This document shows, one piece after another, positions 4,844-16,857 of a stretch of 64,000 bases of DNA. Where the stretch lies: NCBI RefSeq assembly GCF_900101395.1, contig NZ_FMZO01000001.1, positions 1 through 64,000 of the forward strand, in the 5' to 3' direction. Both the position numbers and the translations under genes were made by a program. The notes under the pieces were generated by a model. It ran no database searches, was not told where the DNA came from, and saw nothing but the letters and a program-made list of their open reading frames with translations. The stretch's first letter is position 1. Each line of letters opens with the position of its first letter. The DNA comes from Niabella drilacis. Its GTDB lineage: Bacteria > Bacteroidota > Bacteroidia > Chitinophagales > Chitinophagaceae.

Positions 4844-6424
4844 TTATTCCAATGCGGCAGATCTTTTATTAGAGAGGTATACCATTCCGATCAAAAAGCT
4901 CAGTGCCGCAATGCCGATCGGGTACCAGAGCCCCACCAGCGGATCTTCCGTAAAAGTGGTTTGCAACAATACTCCAATGAACGGAACCAGTCCTCCGAAT
5001 ACTCCGTTACCGATATGATAGGGCAGCGACATGGATGTGTACCGGATATGAACCGGGAACATTTCCACGAGGAAGGCGGCTACCGGGCCATATACCATGG
5101 TTACAAAAATGATCATCGTCCAAACCAGGAAAATGAATTTGTAATACAATGATGCCGGCAGGGTAACATCTGAGTAAACCGGCCTGGCCCTGGCCAGTGC
5201 TGCGGTTATGCCTGCATCGCCATCCAGTGCGCTTAATGGGGGATATAATGTAGACTCTTTTACACCCGGGGCCAGGGTGTCATACCTGCTTTCAGTGACC
5301 GTGATGCCATTAATATGCAATTTGTTTTTTTGTATTACAATCAGCTGGTCGTTGTATTTTTTGGTTTCTATCTTCGCTTTTTCCTGCGCTGCCGGTACGC
5401 CATCGGCGATCCAGCTTTTGATATCTGTGGTTTTCAGGAATTCATTAAAAATCGGTCTGTAAAAAATGACCCCCAGCAGCATACCGGCCAGCATGATCCA
5501 TTTCCTGCCCACTTTGTCGCTCAGCCAGCCAAAGACGATAAAGAAGGGGGTGGCAAATAAAATAGCCCAGAGCATGATGGTACGGCTTTGTTCAAAATTG
5601 AGCAATGCCTTTGTTTCGAGAAAACTCTGCGCGTAAAACTGGCCGGTATACCAGATAACACCCTGGCCCATCACGGCACCAAATAAGGCCAGCAGCACCA
5701 TTTTAAAATTAGCTTTTTTCCGGAAGCTTTCCTTCAGCGGATTTTTGGCTACTTTGCCTTCACTCTTTAAACGCGCGAATAAAGGGGATTCCTCCATCTT
5801 CAGCCGTATATAAACTGATACGACCACCAGCACGATCGAAAACCAGAAAGGATAACGCCAACCGCCCCATTCGGTATTAAACTGCTGGTCGCTCATATTC
5901 ATTTTCACCAGCATAATAACACCCAATGCAAGGAATAGCCCCAGGGTTGCGGTGGTCTGTATCCAGCTGGTATAATAACCTCTTTTCCCGGGTGGCGCAT
6001 GTTCGGCTACATAGGTGGCTGCACCACCATATTCGCCGCCCAGGGCAAGGCCCTGCAGCAGGCGCAGGAGCAGCACGATAAGCGGGGCCGCTATTCCGAT
6101 CGTATGATATCCGGGTACGAGCCCGATCAGGAACGTTGATCCTCCCATTAAAATAAGTGTCAGTAAAAAAGTGGATTTTCTCCCCAGCAGATCGCCCAGC
6201 CGTCCAAAGAACAAAGCGCCAAAAGGACGCACAATAAAACCGGCAGCAAATATAGCCAGCGTACTTAACAAGGCAGCGGTACTGTTACCTTCCGGGAAAA
6301 ACTCAGTGGAGATGGTTTTGGCCAGCATCCCGAAAATGTAAAAATCGTACCACTCAATCATGGTGCCCAGTGACGAAGCCCCGATGACTTTCCGAAGCAC
6401 ACCGGCTTCACTCACTTGTTTCAT
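4844..6424 (-). CDS. MFS transporter, metabolite:H+ symporter (MHS) type
   Basis: An inner-membrane carrier of 526 residues. The start MKQVSEAGVLRKVIGASSLGTMIEWYDFYIFG is typical of the MHS group (ProP, KgtP, ShiA). MFS motif A is present as GRLGDLLGRKS, and RLLQGLALGGEYGGAATYVAEHAP follows. I chose the ATG at 6424; 22 further open codons upstream do not match the family. It is about 80-100 residues longer than typical MHS carriers because of a hydrophilic insertion before the last helices (roughly residues 330-430). It is divergent from acetyl-CoA synthetase, so a monocarboxylate such as acetate is a reasonable guess. An S41 peptidase and a two-helix membrane protein follow in the same direction. 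Confidence 0.88.
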   Translation of the reverse strand: MKQVSEAGVLRKVIGASSLGTMIEWYDFYIFGMLAKTISTEFFPEGNSTAALLSTLAIFAAGFIVRPFGALFFGRLGDLLGRKSTFLLTLILMGGSTFLIGLVPGYHTIGIAAPLIVLLLRLLQGLALGGEYGGAATYVAEHAPPGKRGYYTSWIQTTATLGLFLALGVIMLVKMNMSDQQFNTEWGGWRYPFWFSIVLVVVSVYIRLKMEESPLFARLKSEGKVAKNPLKESFRKKANFKMVLLALFGAVMGQGVIWYTGQFYAQSFLETKALLNFEQSRTIMLWAILFATPFFIVFGWLSDKVGRKWIMLAGMLLGVIFYRPIFNEFLKTTDIKSWIADGVPAAQEKAKIETKKYNDQLIVIQKNKLHINGITVTESRYDTLAPGVKESTLYPPLSALDGDAGITAALARARPVYSDVTLPASLYYKFIFLVWTMIIFVTMVYGPVAAFLVEMFPVHIRYTSMSLPYHIGNGVFGGLVPFIGVLLQTTFTEDPLVGLWYPIGIAALSFLIGMVYLSNKRSAALE

Positions 6425-6528
6425 GTAATTTTGTTTTGTGCAATAAAATAAATACAATCGTTCGCTAACGTTCTTGTTAACAGCAGTCAAGATAATATTT
6501 CTTTCAATAAAATATTAATAAATTTGAA

Positions 6529-6536
6529 TAATTTTT
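6529..6536 (+). promoter_or_regulatory. Candidate -7 element for acs
   Basis: TAAATTTG matches the Bacteroidota -7 consensus TAnnTTTG exactly, 41 bp before the acs ATG. No clear TTG lies about 20 bp upstream, so the -33 element is weak. The 152-bp region between the divergent transporter and acs is strongly AT-rich. Confidence 0.45.
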
Positions 6537-6576
6537 ATTGCCTATTTTTAAGGCCGCAAAAAAAAACGTTTTAGTT

Positions 6577-8523
6577 ATGTCATATTCATTTCAGGTAAAG
6601 ACGATTGAAGAATATCAGGAAGCGTACAAAAAAAGTGTGGAGGACCCCGAGGGTTTTTGGTCGGAAGTGGCTGATACATTTGAGTGGAGAAAGAAACAGC
6701 CTTTCAGCAGCCGGGTGCTTGACTGGAATTTTGTAGAGCCGAAAGTGAAATGGTTTGAAGGCGCGAAGCTGAATATTACTGAAAATTGTCTTGACCGTCA
6801 TTTGAAAACCTCCGGAGACACACCGGCCATCGTTTGGGAGCCGAACGATCCTAATGAAAAAGTTAGAACGCTCACCTATAAAGTACTGCACCGCAAAGTG
6901 TGCGAGTTTGCCCAGGTATTGCGCAATAATGGCGTAAAAAAAGGGGACCGTGTTTGTATATATATGGGAATGATCCCCGAGCTGGTGATTGCGGTGCTGG
7001 CCTGCGCCCGTATCGGAGCCATTCACTCCGTTATATTCGGAGGTTTTTCGGCGCAAAGTATCGCCGACCGCCTGGCTGATGCCGGATCGGAGTTTATTAT
7101 TACCTGCGATGGCGCATACAGGGGGGCAAAGGATATCCCGTTAAAATCGATCATTGATGATGCGCTGATCGGCAATACCGTGGTAAAGCGCGTTATTGTG
7201 CATACACGCACCCGTACTCCGGTGAGTATGATCAAAGGACGCGATGTTTGGTGGCGCGATGAAGTAGAGGATGTGATCGAAACAATGCATGATGATGTGC
7301 TGAATATTCCTGCAGAAGAAATGGATGCTGAAGATCCGCTATTTATCCTGTATACTTCCGGCAGCACGGGTAAGCCCAAGGGTGTGGTGCATACCTGTGC
7401 CGGTTATATGCTTTGGACAACGTATACCTTTGTGAATGTGTTCCAGTATCAGCCAAAGGAGGTTTTCTTTTGCACGGCCGATATCGGCTGGATCACCGGT
7501 CATAGCTATATTGTATACGGCCCCCTTTCGGCGGGCGCTACCTGCCTGATGTTTGAAGGGGTACCTACCTGGCCGGATGCGGGAAGATTCTGGGAAATTG
7601 TGGACAAGCATAAGGTAAATATATTGTATACGGCGCCAACGGCCATCCGTTCGCTGATGAGCTATGGATTGGATCCGGTGAAGGATAAGGACCTGTCGTC
7701 CCTGCGGGTGCTGGGCACCGTGGGGGAACCCATCAATGAAGAAGCATGGCATTGGTATAATGAAAATATCGGAAAAAAGAGATGCCCCATCGTGGATACC
7801 TGGTGGCAGACCGAAACCGGCGGTATCCTCATCTCCAATCTCGCCGGTGTTACACCGTCGCGCCCAAGCTGGGCCACACTGCCGCTTCCGGGGGTACAGC
7901 CTTTGCTGGTAGATGAAAAAGGAGCGGAGATTACAGAGTTTACCGATGAAGTGATGAGCGGGAATCTTTGTATGCGCGCACCCTGGCCGGGCATTCTCAG
8001 AACAACCTATGGCGATCATGAGCGTTGCCGCCAAACCTATTTCAGCGCCTATAAGGATCTTTATTTTACCGGCGACGGGGCCTGGAAAGATGAAAATGGG
8101 AACTATAAGATTACGGGACGTGTAGATGATGTGTTGAATGTGAGTGGGCACAGGCTGGGAACAGCAGAAGTGGAAAACGCGATCAATATGCATGCAAGCG
8201 TAATTGAAAGTGCCGTGGTGGGGTACCCGCACGAGGTAAAGGGGCAGGGCGTTTACGCTTACGTGGTGCTGGATGAAAAACGGCATAAGGATGAGGATGA
8301 TCTTACCCGGAAAGATATACTGGCTACTGTAAGCCGTATCATTGGCCCCATTGCAAAACCGGATAAGATCCAGTTTGTAAGCGGTCTTCCGAAAACAAGA
8401 AGCGGGAAGATCATGCGGCGGATCCTGCGAAAAGTGGCAGAAGGGGAGCTGGCAAACCTGGGTGATACCACTACACTGCTGGATCCTGCAATCGTTGATG
8501 AGATCAAAGAAGGACGGCTTTAA
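6577..8523 (+). CDS. acs: Acetyl-CoA synthetase, AMP-forming
   Basis: Activates acetate to acetyl-CoA via acetyl-AMP in the cytoplasm. The 648-residue length is typical. The N-terminal ACAS domain (YQEAYKKSVEDPEGFW, KVKWFEGAKLNITENCLDRH) leads into the AMP-binding domain, with the P-loop YTSGSTGKPKG at residues 259-269, the TWWQTETGG adenine motif and TGD before the hinge. The C-terminal domain carries PKTRSGKIMRR with the conserved Lys611, which is acetylated to silence the enzyme in other species. The ATG at 6577 is chosen because MSYSF gives the family N-terminus. It is divergent from an MHS carboxylate transporter and followed by a strong terminator. Confidence 0.96.
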   Translation: MSYSFQVKTIEEYQEAYKKSVEDPEGFWSEVADTFEWRKKQPFSSRVLDWNFVEPKVKWFEGAKLNITENCLDRHLKTSGDTPAIVWEPNDPNEKVRTLTYKVLHRKVCEFAQVLRNNGVKKGDRVCIYMGMIPELVIAVLACARIGAIHSVIFGGFSAQSIADRLADAGSEFIITCDGAYRGAKDIPLKSIIDDALIGNTVVKRVIVHTRTRTPVSMIKGRDVWWRDEVEDVIETMHDDVLNIPAEEMDAEDPLFILYTSGSTGKPKGVVHTCAGYMLWTTYTFVNVFQYQPKEVFFCTADIGWITGHSYIVYGPLSAGATCLMFEGVPTWPDAGRFWEIVDKHKVNILYTAPTAIRSLMSYGLDPVKDKDLSSLRVLGTVGEPINEEAWHWYNENIGKKRCPIVDTWWQTETGGILISNLAGVTPSRPSWATLPLPGVQPLLVDEKGAEITEFTDEVMSGNLCMRAPWPGILRTTYGDHERCRQTYFSAYKDLYFTGDGAWKDENGNYKITGRVDDVLNVSGHRLGTAEVENAINMHASVIESAVVGYPHEVKGQGVYAYVVLDEKRHKDEDDLTRKDILATVSRIIGPIAKPDKIQFVSGLPKTRSGKIMRRILRKVAEGELANLGDTTTLLDPAIVDEIKEGRL

Positions 8524-8740: not shown

Positions 8741-9505
8741 TCAGGCCAGGATCACTTTTATCCCTTTTTCCTGCAGCGCAAATACGGTTTTTTCTGATAT
8801 GCGCTTATCCGTTACAATATATTCAACCTGGTCGAGGTTGCAGATCTTACCCAATCCCCGCTTATTAAATTTAGAGCTGTCGGCCAGCAGGATCAGCTTT
8901 TGAGATACTTCGATCATTTTCCGGTTCAGTGCTGCTTCGGCAATATTGGAAATGGATACGCCATGCTCCAGATCGATGCCGTCTACACCTAAAAATAACA
9001 GGTCGCAGGAGATCTCGTCCAGCACCTGCAGGGCCTGGGTGCCGGCCACGGATGAAGAATTAGGGCGGATCAGTCCCCCCAGCTGCAATACCTCAATATT
9101 CGGCCGGTTATTTAACTCAAGTCCCACTTTAAGGGCCGGGGTAATGGCCGTCATTTTATGATCGGGGTAAAGTATGCGGGCCAGTTCAAAGACCGTACTT
9201 CCCGAACCGATCATGATCGAATCGGTCTGGCCGATCACAGACAGCGCCACCCTGGCAATTCTCCTTTTTTCATCAGAATTGATCAGCTCTTTTTCGTTTA
9301 TGGGTTTATCAACCGCATAAGGATTGGTAAGCGACCCGCCTCCCTTGGTTCGAAACAGCAGGTTTTTCTCTTCCAGCATTTTCAGGTCCTTCCGGATGGT
9401 TACGCTGGATATATTGATCTCTTCCGCAAGGTCCAAAATAGCCACCTTGCCCTCTTTTTTCAGTTTGCCTAATATAAACTCGTGCCGTTCCGTAATATTT
9501 TTCAT
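8741..9505 (-). CDS. DeoR family sugar-responsive repressor
   Basis: A 254-residue cytoplasmic transcription factor. The N-terminal DeoR winged helix-turn-helix is clear (ERHEFILGKLKKEGKVAIL, then INISSVTIRKDLKMLEEKNL at about residues 30-50). A DeoRC sensor domain follows with GSGSTVFELARIL, AITPALKVGLEL, VLQLGGLIRPNSSSVAG and FLGVDGIDLEHGV, where phosphorylated sugars usually bind. The ATG at 9505 starts MKNITERHEFI; two further codons reach a TTG at 9511. It is transcribed away from the permease, dehydrogenase and kinase operon, which it most likely represses. The inducer is probably a phosphorylated intermediate of that pathway (inference). Confidence 0.92.
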   Translation of the reverse strand: MKNITERHEFILGKLKKEGKVAILDLAEEINISSVTIRKDLKMLEEKNLLFRTKGGGSLTNPYAVDKPINEKELINSDEKRRIARVALSVIGQTDSIMIGSGSTVFELARILYPDHKMTAITPALKVGLELNNRPNIEVLQLGGLIRPNSSSVAGTQALQVLDEISCDLLFLGVDGIDLEHGVSISNIAEAALNRKMIEVSQKLILLADSSKFNKRGLGKICNLDQVEYIVTDKRISEKTVFALQEKGIKVILA

Positions 9506-9550
9506 TCCCAAGTATTCAATGCTACAAAGAAATGAAAAAGAAGTGTATAT

Positions 9551-9560
9551 AAAACGTTTT
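9551..9560. promoter_or_regulatory. Candidate DeoR operator palindrome
   Basis: A perfect 10-bp palindrome AAAACGTTTT lies 46 bp upstream of the deoR start and about 90 bp upstream of the permease start, in the AT-rich divergent region. A short palindrome can arise by chance in such sequence, so this is a weak candidate. Confidence 0.3.
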
Positions 9561-9627
9561 CGTTAGTGTTTATTTAATTTTTTAACTTTTTTTGATTTAA
9601 TTTAGTTTAATTATGTTTTATTACATT

Positions 9628-9635
9628 TACTTTTG
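9628..9635 (+). promoter_or_regulatory. Candidate -7 element of the polyol operon
   Basis: TACTTTTG fits TAnnTTTG exactly and lies 18 bp before the permease ATG. No TTG is seen at about 20 bp spacing, which suits a promoter needing help from an activator or one held weak. Confidence 0.4.
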
Positions 9636-9652
9636 TTTTAAATTATTGCCAT

Positions 9653-10915
9653 ATGAATCAATTAAATGATGAAAAGGGTTTCATCGGGAAAATGGGTCTT
9701 CCTCCCAACCTGGTATGGGGGTACCTGGGTATCCTGATCTTTATGATGGGGGATGGTGTGGAGCAGGGTTGGCTGAGCCCCTATCTTATCCATGACCGTG
9801 GGCTGACAATTGAACAGTCGGCCACACTTTTTAGCGTATATGGGCTTACCGTGGCCATTTCCTCCTTTCTCTCGGGGATACTGGCGGAAGGGATGGGGGT
9901 GCGCAAGGCCATGTGGGCGGGCTTTTTACTTTTTGTGGCGGGTACCTTCGGATTTGTGGGACTGGGACTTAAAGACCTGGATTTTAGCATGATGTTGCTG
10001 ACATATGCCATCCGTGGGTTTGGTTACCCCTTATTTGCATATACCTTCCTGGTGTGGATCACCTACCGCACACCACAGAACAAACTGGGTACTGCAGTAG
10101 GATGGTTCTGGTTTGTATTTACCGGTGGCCTCAATGTTTTTGGTGCGTATTATTCCAGCTGGGCTATTAACCGGCTGGGACATATCAATACCTTATGGAC
10201 CTCGCTTTTCTGGGTAGCCCTGGGGGCCTTGTTGGCGTTGCTGATCAATCGCGACCGGATCCAGAGAACGGGCGCGCAGGATAAGCTCCGGGAGCTGGCG
10301 GATGGCATTAGAATAGCAGTAAATGAGCCAAAGGTATTTTTGGGAGGCATTGTACGTACCATTAATACAACGGCCCAGTTCGCGTTCCCGGTATTTATGC
10401 CTATTTATTTTGAAAAGTATGGATTTACCACCGCTGATTGGCTGAAGATCTGGGGAACCATTTTTACCGCCAATATCATTTTTAACCTCATATTCGGGTT
10501 TGTGGGCGACCGGTTCGGGTGGCGCAGGACCATTTCGCTTTTCGGGGGGATCGGCTGTGGTCTCACTACCCTGCTGTTTTATTATTCGCCGCAATTGTTT
10601 GACGGCAGTTTTTTTATGGTACTGCTGAGTGGTATACTATGGGGAGCGTTGCTGGCGGGATATGTGCCGTTGTCGGCGCTTGTTCCTTCCCTGGTTCCCA
10701 AAGGAAAAGGAGCTGCTATGGCATTTCTGAACCTGGGCGCCGGCCTGTCGGTGTTTGTGGGGCCGCTGATCGTGCGGCTTTTTATCGGGCCGGCCGGCAA
10801 TGCTGGTGTGATCTGGATCCTGGCGATCCTGTATTTTATCAGTGCCCTGCTTACCCGTTTTATTACGTTACCTGAAACGGTTGCAGAGGCGGAGGCGAGC
10901 CCATCAACTATTTAA
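9653..10915 (+). CDS. MFS permease of the RbtT/DalT/CsbX polyol type
   Basis: A 420-residue inner-membrane carrier with about 12 hydrophobic segments. The N-terminal GYLGILIFMMGDGVEQGWLSPYL and FGYPLFAYTFLVWITYRTP are features of the RbtT/DalT/CsbX group, whose known members import ribitol, D-arabitol and related compounds. It is the first gene of the operon controlled by the divergent DeoR repressor and is followed after 18 bp by a 2-hydroxyacid dehydrogenase and two FGGY kinases. It most likely imports the substrate of that pathway. The family call is fairly secure; the exact substrate cannot be read from the sequence. Confidence 0.87.
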   Translation: MNQLNDEKGFIGKMGLPPNLVWGYLGILIFMMGDGVEQGWLSPYLIHDRGLTIEQSATLFSVYGLTVAISSFLSGILAEGMGVRKAMWAGFLLFVAGTFGFVGLGLKDLDFSMMLLTYAIRGFGYPLFAYTFLVWITYRTPQNKLGTAVGWFWFVFTGGLNVFGAYYSSWAINRLGHINTLWTSLFWVALGALLALLINRDRIQRTGAQDKLRELADGIRIAVNEPKVFLGGIVRTINTTAQFAFPVFMPIYFEKYGFTTADWLKIWGTIFTANIIFNLIFGFVGDRFGWRRTISLFGGIGCGLTTLLFYYSPQLFDGSFFMVLLSGILWGALLAGYVPLSALVPSLVPKGKGAAMAFLNLGAGLSVFVGPLIVRLFIGPAGNAGVIWILAILYFISALLTRFITLPETVAEAEASPSTI

Positions 10916-10933
10916 TAAGAATTCAATTGATAT

Positions 10934-11914
10934 ATGACTATTTTAATTACAGCACCGTATCATGAAGCAGGACGCCGGGAACTGGAATCCCGTTTTGGAA
11001 ATGTGATCTACAGGGTTTGGAAGGAAAACGGGCGTGCTTTTAATGCAGCAGAGCTGGACCGGTTGCTGGATGAAACCCGGGCCGATGCATTGATTACGGA
11101 GCACGATGAAATTACAGAAACGGTGATCCGGAACCATCCGCAGCTGAAATTTATTGGTGTATGCCGGGGAACGCCGTCTAATGTTGCTGTAGAAACAGCT
11201 GCAGAACTGGGTATCGAAGTGTTTCACACTCCTGCAAGAAATGCACAGGCCGTAGCAGAGCTGTTTGTAGCCAACGTGATCACATTTTTGCGGAAGACCC
11301 TGCCGGCTATGGAATGGCTGAAACAACGGAACTGGCAAAAAGGAGCGCATGCTTCCTACCTGCAGTTTAAAGGAAATGAACTGGCGGGCAAAACCATCGG
11401 GATGGTGGGGTTTGGTGCCGTAGGGCAGCGGATCGCAGCCCTGGTGCAGGCCTTTCCCTGCGTTGTAAAGTTTTATGATCCTTATCAGGACGCGCCCGGA
11501 CCGGCCTATGAACAAATAAGCCTTGAAGCGATATTTGAAACCTGCGATATTGTTTCCATACACCTGCCGGTGAACCCCTCCACTATTGGGATGATCGATG
11601 AAAAGCTTATCAACAGAATGAAGCCGGGGGCGATCTTTGTCAATACCGCAAGAGCCAGTGTGGTCGACCGCCTTGCATTATTGCAGGCTATCGAAAATAA
11701 CAGCATCCGTGGTGCCATACTGGATGTGTTTGATCATGAGCCGCCGGATGCTACCGATTACCGGCTGATCGATCATCCGAACGTGTTGGCTACACCACAT
11801 ACTGCCGGCGCAACTGACGAAGTGGAAGATCATCATGTTTCCATTCTTAATGAAAAATTATTGAACTGGGCAAAGGGCCAGCCGTCTAATTCCCTACATT
11901 TATCCAATCTGTAG
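10934..11914 (+). CDS. D-isomer specific 2-hydroxyacid dehydrogenase
   Basis: A 326-residue NAD(P)-dependent oxidoreductase of the phosphoglycerate dehydrogenase superfamily. The nucleotide-binding GFGAVG is at residues 159-164, with an acidic Asp182 at the end of the second strand, which favours NAD. The catalytic triad is complete: Arg240 (NTARASVVD), Glu269 (FDHEPP) and His289 (TPHTAG). The region before the Rossmann fold is the split catalytic domain. It sits between the polyol-type permease (18-bp gap) and the first FGGY kinase (2-bp gap), so it is surely part of the operon. The reaction may be reduction or oxidation of a small sugar acid or hydroxyketone; the substrate is unknown. Confidence 0.9.
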   Translation: MTILITAPYHEAGRRELESRFGNVIYRVWKENGRAFNAAELDRLLDETRADALITEHDEITETVIRNHPQLKFIGVCRGTPSNVAVETAAELGIEVFHTPARNAQAVAELFVANVITFLRKTLPAMEWLKQRNWQKGAHASYLQFKGNELAGKTIGMVGFGAVGQRIAALVQAFPCVVKFYDPYQDAPGPAYEQISLEAIFETCDIVSIHLPVNPSTIGMIDEKLINRMKPGAIFVNTARASVVDRLALLQAIENNSIRGAILDVFDHEPPDATDYRLIDHPNVLATPHTAGATDEVEDHHVSILNEKLLNWAKGQPSNSLHLSNL

Positions 11915-11916
11915 TC

Positions 11917-13362
11917 ATGGCTTTAACAAACGCACATCTAATCATCGACTTTGGCACCGGTAACCTGCGTGCAGCGGTTATCTCTGTTAATGGTGCCGTC
12001 CTGGGAGTAGCCCGTGAAGATATCCCTTATATACGGGATACGCAATATGAAGACTCCATTTATTTTGACCCGCAGGTATTATGGGGCCGGATCCTGGAGC
12101 TGACGGCGATCGCATTAAAGCAAGCCGGTTCTGTACGCATCCTGGCCATTACCGCTACCAGTCAGCGGGAAGGGATCGTGGTATTGGACCCCGCAGGTAC
12201 CCCGGTGGTGGGCATGCCCAATATTGATCATCGCGGAAGGAACCGGGAACCTGTCATCAGCGATAAAGAGCAGGTATACCGTTTGGCAGGGCGTTATCCC
12301 GGCTCCTTGTTTTCGGCATTCAAGCTGGTCGGTTTGAGGGAAGGAAGAAAGGAATGGTGGAATCAGCTGGATACCTTTCTCAGCATCAGCGACTGGATCG
12401 AATATATGTTTTGCGGAGTGGAACATTATGAACATTCGCAGGCATCGGAAACCTTGCTGTATGATGTGGCACAGCAAACCTGGTCGGAAACATTGTGTGC
12501 ATTATTTTCTTTCCCGTTGTCGTTATTGCCGCCGCTCACCCGCTCCGGTACGGTACTGGGAAAGATCCGGCCGCCGCTTGCAGAAGCGCTGTCCATCGAC
12601 GCGGATGCAAAAGTGATCGTAGGCGGGGCGGATACACAGCTGGCTGTATTGAGCACCCGCGCACATGCAGGGGATGTGGTGATCGTGTCCGGTACCACTA
12701 CACCGATCATAAAGCTTTCCGCATCCTATGATCTGGATGAGCAGCAGCGGACCTGGACGGGTAGGTACATCGATGCGAATAGCTATATGGTGGAAGCCAA
12801 TGCCGGTGTGACCGGTTTGAATTATCAGCGGCTGAAAAAAATATTTTATCCCAATGAAGGATACGAGGTCATTGAAGAAGAGTTGCGGTCTGTTACCGAC
12901 TTTCAATGTGTGGCATCCCTGGGATCGCTGGTGGCCGATGAGAAAAAGCCACTGATCAAAGGAGGGTTTATCTTTAATACGCCGGTGAATCACGAACTGT
13001 CCAGGGCCGGGATGGTCTGGGCCACATTGTGGGATATCGCCTGCAGTATCTTTGAAAACTATAAAACCCTGGTTTCCGTAACGCCCAATGCGCATTCCTA
13101 TATCTGGACCTGCGGTGGTGGCATGGAAAGCAGGATGCTCCGGCAGTTTATTGCCGACCTTACCGGCAAAGAGATCCGGATCCGTGACAATTACCGGCAC
13201 GCTTCGGTTATCGGAGGCATGATGATCTGCAATACAGCATTGGGCATTACTGCCGGGCAAAAGGAACTGTATGAGGCGGTACAACCGGAAGCAGGTACAC
13301 AACCGTCCCTTTTTTATAACAGCTGGAAGGAGCACCGTGAATTGTTAAAGAAGATCTTTTAG
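11917..13362 (+). CDS. FGGY family kinase, LsrK-like
   Basis: A 481-residue cytoplasmic carbohydrate kinase. The ATP-binding DFGTGNLR is at residues 11-18 and the expected catalytic Asp is Asp239 (GGADTQ). A CGGGMESRM nucleotide-binding segment lies near the C-terminus. By eye several stretches resemble the autoinducer-2 kinase LsrK: SQREGIV followed by the PNIDHRGR block (residues 82-108), and ISDWIEYMFCG followed by the SQASETLLYD block. It starts 2 bp after the dehydrogenase stop and its own stop touches the next kinase's start. The substrate is probably a four- or five-carbon polyol, ketose or hydroxyketone. I cannot tell which of the two kinases acts first. Confidence 0.88.
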   Translation: MALTNAHLIIDFGTGNLRAAVISVNGAVLGVAREDIPYIRDTQYEDSIYFDPQVLWGRILELTAIALKQAGSVRILAITATSQREGIVVLDPAGTPVVGMPNIDHRGRNREPVISDKEQVYRLAGRYPGSLFSAFKLVGLREGRKEWWNQLDTFLSISDWIEYMFCGVEHYEHSQASETLLYDVAQQTWSETLCALFSFPLSLLPPLTRSGTVLGKIRPPLAEALSIDADAKVIVGGADTQLAVLSTRAHAGDVVIVSGTTTPIIKLSASYDLDEQQRTWTGRYIDANSYMVEANAGVTGLNYQRLKKIFYPNEGYEVIEEELRSVTDFQCVASLGSLVADEKKPLIKGGFIFNTPVNHELSRAGMVWATLWDIACSIFENYKTLVSVTPNAHSYIWTCGGGMESRMLRQFIADLTGKEIRIRDNYRHASVIGGMMICNTALGITAGQKELYEAVQPEAGTQPSLFYNSWKEHRELLKKIF

Positions 13363-14805
13363 ATGAATGATGCATATTTTATAGGGATAGACCTGGGTAC
13401 CCAGGGATTGCGTGTGGTAGTGCTGGATGTAAGGGGCTCCATTGTGGCTGGTGCGGAACAGGGTTTCCCATTATCGCCCGGGATGCGCATGGAGCAGGAT
13501 CCGGACGAATGGTGGAGGATCTGCCGGCATTGCCTGGATAAAGCCATTGGCCGGTTGTCTGCGGAACAACGCGCCCGGGTACTTGCGATAGCCGTTGATT
13601 CCACCTCCGGTACGGTGATCCCCATGGACAAAACATACCGCCCGCTGCATCCCGCTATCATGTACAGCGATCAGCGCTCCGGTATCCAGGCTAAAAAGTG
13701 CACGGCAGCGGCACAGCAATACCATCCCCAGGGGTTTACCGGTTTCAGTACTTCTACCGGGTTGGCCAAAATGGTATGGTTCGCGGAAACCTTTCCTGAA
13801 AAAGCAGCACAGATCTTTCAATGGATCCATGCAGCCGATTTTATTACCGGTAAACTGTGTGGTGTATGGAATGTTACGGACTATACCAATGTGCTCAAAT
13901 CCGGCTACGACCTGACCTTACTGAACTGGCCGGATTATATTCATGATGTCCTGGGGGTAAGAAAAGAATGGCTGCAGGAGGTACAGCCGTCCGGAACGGT
14001 TATCGGAACGTTGAAAGCAGACCTGGTGCGTGACCTGGAGCTTCCGGATCATGTGGCGGTTACGACCGGCATCACCGATGGTTGTGCTTCGCAGGTAGCA
14101 TCGGGCGCTATGAAGCCAGGCCAGTGGAATACGACCATAGGCACTACCCTCGTTATAAAGGGCGTGTCTGTAAAAGAAATAAACGATCCTTTAAACCGCT
14201 TATATAATCACCGGCACCCGGCCGGCTACTGGATGCCGGGTGGTGCAGGAAATATTGGTGCCGACTGGGTTGCGGCGGGTTTCAGGGACGCACTGGAACA
14301 TTACAATACTGCTGCGGCTGCTTTAACACCTACGGGTAAGATCGCCTACCCGCTGATTCAGAAAGGTGAACGGTTCCCGTTTGTGGCACCGGAGGCGGAG
14401 GGCTTTGCCCCGGATGGAGTATCGGGGGAAGTATTGTACACGGCCAATATGGAAGGGGTGGCGTTTGCAGAACGCTACGCTTATGAAATGATCCGGTCTT
14501 TGTCGGGAGAAAATGTGGAAGCCATTTATACCGCAGGAGGAGCCAGTAACAGCGATACCTGGCTGCAGATCCGCAGTGATATATTGCAGAAGCCGGTATG
14601 TAAAATGAAATACGTATCAGGTGCAGTGGGGGCGGCTATCGTTGCAGCGTCGACGACCTGTTTCAATGATATCAGTGAAGCAACTGCTGCGCTCACTCAG
14701 GCAGAAAAATGGGTGACTCCGGGGGAGAACCTGAAACAGCAGTACGAGGATCAATATGGTTTATTCCTGAAAACGATGAAGGCGCGGGGCTTTATAAATG
14801 AATAA
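13363..14805 (+). CDS. FGGY family kinase, xylulokinase-like
   Basis: A 480-residue carbohydrate kinase, distinct from its neighbour. IGIDLGTQGLR (residues 7-17) is the ATP-binding loop, and Asp239 in GITDGCASQV is the expected catalytic base. Further family blocks are MYSDQRS, IHAADFITGKLCG and YTAGGASNSDTWLQIRSD. The ATG directly follows the TAG of the first kinase, implying translational coupling. It is the last gene of the tight permease, dehydrogenase and kinase run. Two kinases in one operon suggest either two substrates feeding one route or successive steps. No aldolase, epimerase or isomerase is encoded nearby, so later steps must lie elsewhere. Confidence 0.9.
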   Translation: MNDAYFIGIDLGTQGLRVVVLDVRGSIVAGAEQGFPLSPGMRMEQDPDEWWRICRHCLDKAIGRLSAEQRARVLAIAVDSTSGTVIPMDKTYRPLHPAIMYSDQRSGIQAKKCTAAAQQYHPQGFTGFSTSTGLAKMVWFAETFPEKAAQIFQWIHAADFITGKLCGVWNVTDYTNVLKSGYDLTLLNWPDYIHDVLGVRKEWLQEVQPSGTVIGTLKADLVRDLELPDHVAVTTGITDGCASQVASGAMKPGQWNTTIGTTLVIKGVSVKEINDPLNRLYNHRHPAGYWMPGGAGNIGADWVAAGFRDALEHYNTAAAALTPTGKIAYPLIQKGERFPFVAPEAEGFAPDGVSGEVLYTANMEGVAFAERYAYEMIRSLSGENVEAIYTAGGASNSDTWLQIRSDILQKPVCKMKYVSGAVGAAIVAASTTCFNDISEATAALTQAEKWVTPGENLKQQYEDQYGLFLKTMKARGFINE

Positions 14806-15035: not shown

Positions 15036-15638
15036 ATGCTAAAAGTAATTTTATTGAGGCATGGTGAAACAGCGTATAATGCTGATGGCAACCGGTATTG
15101 CGGCAGAACGGATATAGGACTTACAGAGAAGGGAACCGCACAGGCCGGTAAGGTATTGGAAGCGCTGAAAGGCGTAAAGGTTGATGCCGTTTATGCATCG
15201 CCCTTGCAGCGTGCCCGTGAAACGGCAGCGATCGCTTCCGGCAACCAGGCTGTTATAACGGATGAACGGCTGATAGAAGCGGATTTCGGATTGTGGGAAG
15301 GAAAAACAAAAGAAGAATTCAATGCGGAGGATCCAACGCTTTGGGCCGCATGGATGAAGGACCCCGAGATAGCAAGGGCAGGAGGTACGGGAGAAACGGG
15401 CGGGGAAATTGTAAGGCGGGTGAGTGATTTTTTTGAAGAGCTGCACCGCAAACATAGCGGGCAGCGGGTAATGGTGGTAGCGCATAACGGCATCAACCGG
15501 TTGTACCTGGCATCGAAACTGGGTATGCCATTATCGAACTACCGCCGCTTTGATATGGAAAACTCCGCCGTGTCGTATTTTGAGCTGGATGATGAAAATG
15601 TGCTGGTCCTTAAAAAACTGAACGCAACCGCATTATAA
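15036..15638 (+). CDS. Histidine phosphatase family protein
   Basis: A 200-residue phosphatase of the phosphoglycerate mutase-like superfamily. LLRHGET gives Arg8, the phospho-accepting His9 and Glu11. Arg59 (SPLQRARET), Glu81 and His150 (VVAHNGINR) complete the active site. The long 2,3-bisphosphoglycerate mutase insertions are absent, so a phosphatase acting on a small phosphoester is likelier. It lies 230 bp after the second FGGY kinase. A near-consensus promoter (TTTTG at 14984-14988, GAACTTTG at 15010-15017) precedes it, so it may be transcribed separately. A role in dephosphorylating a product of the upstream kinases is possible but unproven. Confidence 0.9.
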   Translation: MLKVILLRHGETAYNADGNRYCGRTDIGLTEKGTAQAGKVLEALKGVKVDAVYASPLQRARETAAIASGNQAVITDERLIEADFGLWEGKTKEEFNAEDPTLWAAWMKDPEIARAGGTGETGGEIVRRVSDFFEELHRKHSGQRVMVVAHNGINRLYLASKLGMPLSNYRRFDMENSAVSYFELDDENVLVLKKLNATAL

Positions 15639-15666: not shown

Positions 15667-16857
15667 ATGAGTATTCGGAATTTCCTGGTCTTGTTTACGG
15701 TCCTTTTTGTTTTATGGAGCTGTAAAACCGCCCGGCTGGGCGGTTCCCCCGGTAATGAAAAAGCATCGCTTTCTCCAAACGGCCTTCCGCGCACTATTTA
15801 CCGGGAAGAGGGCAATTTTCATGTGCAGGGCGTGGTAGTGGATGTGCAACGCGGGTATGCTTATTTTTCATTTACAACAAAGCTGGTAAAAACCAATTTG
15901 AAAGGCGAACTCATCGGGAGCGTGGATGGGCTCATCGGGCACCTGGGTTGCCTGGATGTAAACCCGGAGGATGGCCGCATCTATGCTTCGCTGGAATATA
16001 AAAATGATAACATCGGCAAAGGGATTTTAAAAGGACTTGGAAAGGAAACGAAGGATCCGGATGCGGAAAGCTCTTTCTATATTGCCATTTTTGATGGGGA
16101 AAAGATTACCCGGCCTGGTATGAGCGCTGAAAAAGATCATATCATTCATACGGTTTACCTGAAAGAAGTGGCCGATGATTATAAGGCAACGGTGATGAAC
16201 AGGGGAAAACAAGTGGAGCACCGTTATGGATGCAGTGGTATTGATGGTATTGCTTTTGGTCCGCAGTTCGGGCAAAAAGGGGGAAAGAATTTCCTCAACC
16301 TGGCTTATGGCATATATGGCGATACCTCCCGTACAGACAACGATTACCAGGTGATCCTGCAATATGATGCAAAAGACCTGCGCCGGTACGAACGGCCATT
16401 GTCGCAAAACGGGTTTAATAAAACAGGGCCGGTCAAACCTTTGAATAAATATTTCCTGTATACCGGCAATAGCACTTATGGCATTCAGAATCTGGAATAC
16501 GATGCGCATACCGGGTATTGGCTGGCGGCGGTTTATGCAGGCAAAAAAAAGCAGTTTCCCAATTATAGCCTGTTCGCAATAGACGGGGCTAAAAGCCCGG
16601 CACAAGAGGTGTTAAAAGGGTTTGATAGCCATGAAAAAGGAAATGTGTTGCAACTGGCCGCCACGGGCATGTATGATCAAAAGAGCGGGGTGCATGGATG
16701 GTATTATCCATGGGGCGCTACCGGCATACATGCATTGGGCAACGGCTATTTTTATATTGCCCGGAACGGGGTTACCAAAGATAAGAAACAATACGGCGAC
16801 CTCCGGTTGTATCACTGGACGGGGCAGGATGCGGAGCCGTTTGAAGAGGTGAAATGA
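15667..16857 (+). CDS. Putative lipoprotein, beta-propeller-like, unknown function
   Basis: A 396-residue secreted protein. The N-terminal hydrophobic stretch ends in a lipobox-like LWSCKT with Cys19 as the lipidation site. The mature part has repeated strands rich in Gly, Tyr and Asp (GVVVDVQRGYAYFSF, GHLGCLDVNPEDGRIYASLEY, YGIQNLEYDAHTGYWLAAVY), a spacing that suggests a beta-propeller fold. I recognise no named family. It starts 28 bp after the histidine phosphatase and probably shares its transcript. It may bind or act on a ligand outside the inner membrane; nothing in the sequence says which. Confidence 0.8.
   Translation: MSIRNFLVLFTVLFVLWSCKTARLGGSPGNEKASLSPNGLPRTIYREEGNFHVQGVVVDVQRGYAYFSFTTKLVKTNLKGELIGSVDGLIGHLGCLDVNPEDGRIYASLEYKNDNIGKGILKGLGKETKDPDAESSFYIAIFDGEKITRPGMSAEKDHIIHTVYLKEVADDYKATVMNRGKQVEHRYGCSGIDGIAFGPQFGQKGGKNFLNLAYGIYGDTSRTDNDYQVILQYDAKDLRRYERPLSQNGFNKTGPVKPLNKYFLYTGNSTYGIQNLEYDAHTGYWLAAVYAGKKKQFPNYSLFAIDGAKSPAQEVLKGFDSHEKGNVLQLAATGMYDQKSGVHGWYYPWGATGIHALGNGYFYIARNGVTKDKKQYGDLRLYHWTGQDAEPFEEVK

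Follow-up and report, generated by a model that had tools for sequence, protein, structure and literature searches.

What compound is consumed through an operon that joins a polyol-type permease and a D-2-hydroxyacid dehydrogenase to two dissimilar sugar kinases? The question is raised by a locus of Niabella drilacis, located within a 64,000-nucleotide stretch of contig NZ_FMZO01000001.1 (the window, to which coordinates given without a locus name refer; the whole genome has 6.1 Mb in 45 contigs). A sequence-only reading of the window had described four closely spaced genes, divergent from a gene for a DeoR-family regulator, as a defined catabolic route that fits none of the usual pentitol or tetritol operons; the present analysis supports a catabolic operon, as yet uncharacterised and associated with DeoR, whose permease is of the RbtT type. 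Tentatively, it is interpreted here as serving the salvage of carbon from a small polyhydroxy compound, a polyol or sugar acid of about C3-C6, that arrives in a phosphodiester. The genes, their order and families, the catalytic residues, the conservation and the recurring phosphoesterases that lead to this interpretation are established at the level of DNA sequence.

The gene set and its conservation

The permease (9653-10915, + strand) belongs to the RbtT/DalT/CsbX family of the major facilitator superfamily (MFS) and reaches 554.7 bits against a cut-off of 375 in TIGR00897, which bears out the ribitol/arabitol type first assigned to it. It is followed on the same strand, after 18 bp, by the D-2-hydroxyacid dehydrogenase (HADH, 10934-11914), after a further 2 bp by the FGGY kinase K1 (11917-13362) and, after 0 bp, by the FGGY kinase K2 (13363-14805), and the coordinates of the open reading frames (ORFs) confirm these spacings as originally described. 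The absence of any aldolase, isomerase or epimerase gene also holds for the operon in the window.

The same gene order was sought in other Bacteroidota. A profile search of genome contigs with an alignment of K1 returned 168 relatives, of which the best 80 were kept, so that distant contexts such as that of Enterococcus are under-sampled. Together with the window, six relatives likewise chosen by K1 (L039-L044) and an Enterococcus record from outside Bacteroidota (L029), these 80 loci form a survey of 88 stretches; 16 related loci were fetched separately, L093 was without K1 in the clustering, and L045 was not counted. The survey ORFs are the longest open frames, clustered into families whose identities were taken from one member each. 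K1 and K2 were each present in 87 stretches, HADH in 84, a histidine phosphatase in 82, the RbtT family in 79, DeoR in 70 (mostly divergent) and a glycerophosphodiesterase (GDPD) in 66, followed by a further MFS family (25), an EEP family (24), a flavin adenine dinucleotide (FAD) oxidoreductase (23) and a metallophosphatase (10). With exceptions, the usual order is DeoR on one side and RbtT-HADH-K1-K2-phosphatase-GDPD on the other, with median gaps of 6 bp between HADH and K1, -1 bp between K1 and K2, -4 bp between K2 and the phosphatase and 15 bp between the phosphatase and GDPD; because the ORFs are the longest open frames, many of the overlaps, and the large ones in particular, are artefacts of start-site choice. 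Eighty further named loci show these genes around K1, with single genes absent or cut off in some, and the arrangement is therefore more than chance. The K1 sequences of the survey fall into 36 clusters at 75% identity.

These relatives also show that an operon ending with K2, at 14805, is too short. The histidine phosphatase gene stands directly after K2, on the same strand, in 82 of the 88 stretches (gap of at most 30 bp in 74, overlap in 42), and because of this adjacency the gene at 15036-15638 (+ strand) is counted, from its position, as an operon member despite the 230 bp that separate it from K2 in the window. Its product belongs to branch 1 of the histidine phosphatases (PF00300, 193 bits), with 4ij5, phosphoserine phosphatase 1, as the best solved structure. 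The following gene, h396 (15667-16857, + strand), probably belongs to the operon as well; it encodes an exported protein, a possible lipoprotein with a predicted beta-propeller, and occupies the slot taken by GDPD in relatives.

K1 of Niabella pedocola is 89% identical to that of the window. K1 was found at E <= 1e-60 in three of 395 evenly drawn Bacteroidota genomes, the genome under study included, and the operon is therefore patchy. It has decayed in two genomes of the same genus, L045 (G003) and L043 (G013), where several genes are split into multiple frames. In two Pedobacter loci, L056:10-7347 and L073, the operon lies downstream of what appears by eye to be a gene set for L-rhamnose that includes a separate FGGY kinase.

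Phosphoesterases beside the operon

The GDPD gene follows the phosphatase gene directly in 62 stretches and lies within 30 bp of it in 49. The solved structure nearest to the operon GDPD, 3mz2, is itself a GDPD. This association is not background, because in its 6.1 Mb the Niabella genome carries just two genes for a GDPD, one of them about 200 bp from glpK. In a hydrophobicity test, a signal-peptide-like N-terminus was detected in 64 of the 66 GDPDs, in 2 of 84 HADHs and in 1 of 82 histidine phosphatases. The crudeness of this test shows in the 8 of 87 positives obtained for K1, and again for K2, and in the 10 of 23 for the FAD protein.

Other phosphoesterases occur in or beside the operon, and do so across different genera. 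They comprise the EEP proteins of 24 stretches, which have 3g6s and a mannosyl-6-phosphatase as relatives, the metallophosphatase family of 10 stretches, two PF01663 phosphodiesterase families in L088, L108, L109, L123 and L124 (from Pfam matches of one member each), an additional GDPD in L055 and another in L083, a phospholipase C with a C-terminal domain beside the DeoR gene of L120, and a purple acid phosphatase. At least one of five phosphoesterase families is present somewhere in 72 of the 88 stretches, and the 16 without them are the eight stretches with h396 (the window included), L029 and seven others. The sequence-only reading had compared the locus with pentitol and tetritol operons; a free pentitol or tetritol is not the best reading, because the recurring partners are phosphodiesterases and phosphatases. 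A separate curiosity is L055:1200-3218, where an EEP-type phosphatase domain is fused to FG-GAP repeats and the TcdB-midN Pfam match is most likely a repeat cross-match.

GDPD and h396 do not occur together in the survey: GDPD is present in 0 of 8 h396 stretches against 66 of the 79 other Bacteroidota stretches (Fisher 3.5e-6, a value uncorrected for relatedness, although Niabella supplies seven of the eight stretches with h396). Among 59 genomes, h396 was detected in 12, the present one included, all of which carry K1; K1 itself was found at E <= 1e-140 in 16, with a decaying copy in one (G013). The N-terminus of h396 is hydrophobic in 8 of 8 sequences, a strict lipobox is present in 1 of 8, and Cys19 is invariant in 11 of 11. 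Searches of Pfam and of solved structures found no family and no relative for h396. Its AlphaFold model is a beta-propeller (pLDDT 64) for which several kinds of fold tie as top matches (WD40, NHL, Yellow-type, phytase and others), and the fold is therefore not used to assign a function. From its position, h396 may perform the extracytoplasmic job of GDPD. In genome G034, an h396 relative lies far from the K1 operon and, by eye, about 2.6 kb from a phospholipase C-like gene.

The dehydrogenase

HADH is complete, as had been noted at the outset: it matches PF02826 and PF00389 and carries Arg240, Glu269 and His289, which place it in the D-2-hydroxyacid dehydrogenase superfamily and are each kept in 83 of 84 survey sequences, the remaining sequence having a gap. 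It is probably NAD-dependent, and its 192.2 bits in the phosphoglycerate dehydrogenase model TIGR01327 lie below the cut-off of 454. The usual substrate loop of D-2-hydroxyacid dehydrogenases is of the RAGTGVDN type. Here the loop is unusual and reads CRGTPSN (RxxPxN type), followed by TPARNA ([AG]RNA), with Arg78, Pro81, Asn83, Arg102, Asn103 and Asp182 in 84 of 84 sequences; the two extra invariant arginines may hold a phosphate or a second acid group.

The sequence-only reading had considered this class of dehydrogenase an oddity next to sugar kinases, a view that must be revised. HADHs with the RxxPxN and [AG]RNA motifs adjoin FGGY kinases in three other phyla, alongside a class II aldolase-family protein, in records of Klebsiella, Streptomyces, Cereibacter, Paracoccus and Enterococcus raffinosus; one chemistry is therefore possibly widespread, and acid-sugar chemistry is what these clusters would appear to share. 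Except in Enterococcus, their kinases fall outside the K1 group in the kinase tree. The class II aldolase-fold protein of Klebsiella passes the cut-offs for MtnB dehydratase, and its Streptomyces counterpart passes none. Common descent of these HADHs was considered and set aside: the HADH tree gives no resolution beyond the Bacteroidota-Enterococcus group, and the common loop is therefore a resemblance rather than a demonstrated kinship. The trio of HADH, FGGY kinase and class II aldolase-family protein was located at L138:6887-10029, L139:7211-10555, L140:8776-12029 and L142:8779-12001 (Klebsiella, Streptomyces, Cereibacter and Paracoccus plasmids, respectively), and those of Cereibacter and Paracoccus stand beside coenzyme A transferases, a thiamine diphosphate enzyme and an S/N-oxide reductase. 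In the Niabella genome, class II aldolases gave four matches in three open frames, none of them at the operon: one frame lies with the ribulokinase gene, one forms part of a bifunctional rhamnulose-1-phosphate aldolase, and one is near another FGGY gene.

The two kinases

Both kinases carry the catalytic aspartate claimed for them (Asp239 in each, kept in 87 of 87 sequences for each). The best solved structure for K1 (PF00370 and PF02782) is 5ya0, an autoinducer-2 kinase, and for K2 the best are 5htr and 5htn, of AtXK-1 and SePSK. K1 and K2 score under the cut-off of every NCBIfam kinase model that they matched (XylB, ribulokinase, LsrK, FucK and GlpK), with 122.9 and 179.9 bits, respectively, for xylulokinase (TIGR01312, cut-off 380.25), 23.8 and 121.3 bits for ribulokinase (NF003154, cut-off 428) and 129.9 and 105.8 bits for the autoinducer-2 kinase LsrK (NF008187, cut-off 528). 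A standard xylulokinase and ribulokinase pair is ruled out by these curated cut-offs and by a separate ribulokinase gene in the genome, which reaches 708.5 bits in NF003154. Glycerol kinase is excluded as well; a glycerol kinase above its cut-off is encoded elsewhere in the genome, by the glpK gene beside a GDPD gene. The other XylB-like kinase of the genome (L002) scores 302.9 bits against the 380.25 required, so that the presence of a standard xylulokinase elsewhere in the genome is probable rather than proven.

A tree that includes E. coli kinases places K1 as the sister of LsrK (support 86/77), at 24% identity, and groups it with a 33%-identical Enterococcus protein (100/100); K2 falls on the side of XylB and LyxK. 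Many branches are long, and the tree is therefore only a guide. Across the survey, K2 keeps Asp10, Ser82, Lys179 and Asp239 in 87 of 87 sequences and Thr13 in 85 of 87. By eye, Asp8, Thr11, Ser72, Lys163, Asp221 and Ser222 of SePSK correspond to Asp, Thr, Ser, Lys, Asp and Gly in K2, which thus appears to retain most of the residues that contact D-ribulose in SePSK. According to the structural report, SePSK has D-ribulose kinase activity and AtXK-1 responded little to D-ribulose (PMC4880283).

A proposed salvage route and its alternatives

In the salvage route that we tentatively favour, the compound would come from a phosphodiester such as a glycerophosphodiester, a lipid head group or a teichoic-acid-like polymer. 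Phosphodiesterases or phosphatases exported by the cell, in most relatives GDPD and in Niabella possibly h396, would free it outside the cytoplasm, and the RbtT-type permease would import it. HADH would then use NAD(H) to interconvert a 2-hydroxy acid and a 2-oxo acid, intermediates would be phosphorylated by K1 and K2, the histidine phosphatase would strip phosphate from one intermediate, and the end products would enter the pool of pentose phosphates or triose phosphates. The substrate, the order of the steps and what each protein does are what we infer here. Several points weigh against this route. The operon of the window has no GDPD, SusCD or recognised phosphodiesterase, a close relative of the operon GDPD was sought in its genome and not found, and h396 has no known activity and a model of middling confidence. 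Neither GDPD nor h396 is present in 13 of 87 Bacteroidota stretches, and the Enterococcus HADH-K1 pair has, by eye, no adjoining phosphodiesterase. As evidence for a phosphodiester, the phosphoesterase families other than GDPD are no more than suggestive, and the loci were picked via K1 and include one duplicate (L040 and L122 are a single contig). HADH suggests an acid, the permease family and K2 suggest polyols or ketoses, and the model does not join the two.

A route for sugar acids without any phosphodiester appears unlikely, yet is the strongest competitor. The permease would import a free aldonate or 2-ketoaldonate, HADH would reduce a 2-ketoaldonate or hydroxypyruvate (or catalyse the reverse reaction), phosphorylated acids or ketoses would be made by K1 and K2, the phosphatase would clear a dead-end phosphate, and the phosphoesterases would be mere neighbours for phosphate supply. 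The acid-binding arginine and the His-Glu pair of HADH (83 of 84), together with Arg78 and Arg102 (84 of 84), agree with this, as do the clusters of HADH, FGGY kinase and class II aldolase-family protein in other phyla, which fit acid-sugar routes, and the NhaC-like transporter (74 bits, cut-off 370) of the Enterococcus operon, a transporter type that includes acid carriers. However, a GDPD in 66 of 88 stretches, right after the phosphatase gene in 62 and within 30 bp in 49, is more than a loose neighbourhood, and the Bacteroidota operons have no dehydratase or aldolase family as a constant member. Distinctly less probable is the use of ribitol or another pentitol from teichoic-acid-like phosphodiesters, with import by RbtT, oxidation to D-ribulose and K2 as a D-ribulokinase. 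This would account for the permease family, for AtXK-1 and SePSK as the nearest solved relatives of K2, the latter with D-ribulose kinase activity, and for the match by eye of five of the six SePSK residues considered (Ser222 is Gly). On the other hand, K2 is far under the ribulokinase model (121 bits, cut-off 428), AtXK-1 itself shows little response to D-ribulose, and K1 and HADH are left unexplained. Moreover, the operon lacks a polyol dehydrogenase, none being found among the window ORFs between 8.7 and 17 kb or among the ten commonest survey families, and oxidation of ribitol would not be expected of a D-2-hydroxyacid dehydrogenase.

The scavenging of autoinducer-2 or a related 1-deoxy-pentulose, in which K1 would act like LsrK and HADH would reduce the diketone or its product, is considered very improbable. 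Its attraction lies in the position of K1 as sister to LsrK (86/77), its best solved relative, and in the Enterococcus HADH-K1 pair, which stands beside MtnK, MtnA and a FucA-type aldolase, handlers of other S-adenosylmethionine by-products. Against it, K1 reaches 129.9 bits where LsrK requires 528, at 24% identity, and no LsrF- or LsrG-type gene was seen in the operon. None of 20 genomes, the present one included, yielded LuxS (control positive in 5 of 14), a result tempered by the fact that uptake of a foreign signal needs no LuxS; the MtnA family (PF01008) was missing from all 16 genomes searched, of which 14 carry K1 (control positive in 9 of 14). These two absences weaken both the autoinducer-2 reading and one based on the dihydroxyacetone phosphate (DHAP) shunt. 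The remaining probability belongs to something else.

Returning to the salvage of phosphodiester-bound compounds, the novelty would lie in a conserved, undescribed combination of ordinary enzyme families. It is possible, and is proposed with more reserve than the salvage role itself, that the operon represents an undescribed pathway of soil and plant Bacteroidota for phosphodiester-bound polyols or sugar acids, built on a new HADH subfamily and an LsrK-sister kinase. Keyword searches of the open-access literature, not all of them aimed at this gene set, returned no description of it. If the reading is true, the scavenging of organic phosphorus would be tied to the carbon nutrition of bacteria from soil and plants, in the genera Niabella, Pedobacter, Sphingobacterium, Dyadobacter, Larkinella and Chitinophaga; two groups of FGGY kinases, both unassigned, and one group of HADHs would gain a common context, with a substrate testable from a short list of compounds.

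The regulator and neighbouring genes

The divergent regulator gene (8741-9511, - strand) encodes a DeoR-family protein (Pfam DeoRC, 157 bits, with HTH_DeoR) and probably starts at ATG 9505 rather than TTG 9511, a start preferred because the proteins of relatives begin with MKNITERHEF. The AT-rich, DeoR-facing intergenic regions of 63 loci carry 10-bp direct repeats of the GTTTNATTNN type, putative operator sites, with the exception of L107, where no site exceeds 6 bits. In the window, the putative operator lies at 9596-9638 (+ strand), where three overlapping occurrences of the exact long pattern are found; the genome has one other. DeoR would bind these repeats, and the operon is probably repressed by its DeoR. 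A genome search with at most one mismatch gave 8 matches against 8 for the reversed control, and therefore no wider regulon is claimed. The outside exact match (L134:8229, contig C9) is about 90 bp before what appears by eye to be a SusC/SusD pair, and could be a second DeoR target or chance.

Directly ahead of the DeoR gene, at 4844-8523, a metabolite/H+ symporter and an acetyl-CoA synthetase are encoded. This pair is also found in several other Niabella loci (L030-L033, L037) and in none of the other relatives examined, and these are regarded as ordinary neighbours.

Comparison with known systems

Enteric ribitol and D-arabitol operons combine a TIGR00897-family permease, an FGGY kinase and a polyol dehydrogenase. 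The operon in the window shares the permease family and an FGGY kinase with them; instead of the polyol dehydrogenase, it has HADH, a second kinase and a phosphatase. The resemblance to the E. coli Lsr system is confined to K1, which is sister to LsrK but only 24% identical to it and far under the LsrK cut-off; the other Lsr genes were not seen here, and LuxS, as stated above, was absent from the 20 genomes tested.

Another comparison is with the DHAP shunt, or 5-deoxyribose salvage (PMC6079011). In an E. raffinosus operon, MtnK, MtnA and a FucA-type aldolase accompany one HADH relative (41% identity) and one K1 relative (33%), whereas the operon in the window has none of these three partners, and the MtnA family was absent from all 16 genomes searched. 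The Enterococcus operon itself (L029:5658-14690, on plasmid p1_Er676) is unannotated, also encodes an NhaC-like transporter and an iron alcohol dehydrogenase, and may be a variant of the DHAP shunt. For K2, SePSK and AtXK-1 (PMC4880283) are the nearest solved structures and most contact residues are kept; identity is low, however, the C-terminus of K2 is longer, and Ser222 of SePSK is replaced by Gly.

Plant-associated Bacteroidetes are known to pair SusCD importers with exported phosphodiesterases and phosphatases, as described for the phosphate utilisation systems of Flavobacterium (PMC8115612, whose text does not contain the term "carbohydrate kinase"). Several relatives of the operon carry SusCD together with phosphoesterases, for instance the contig shared by L040 and L122. 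The operon in the window differs in having no SusCD, and the constant core described here differs in being a cytosolic carbon route, composed of the permease, HADH, two kinases and the phosphatase, accompanied by its DeoR regulator.

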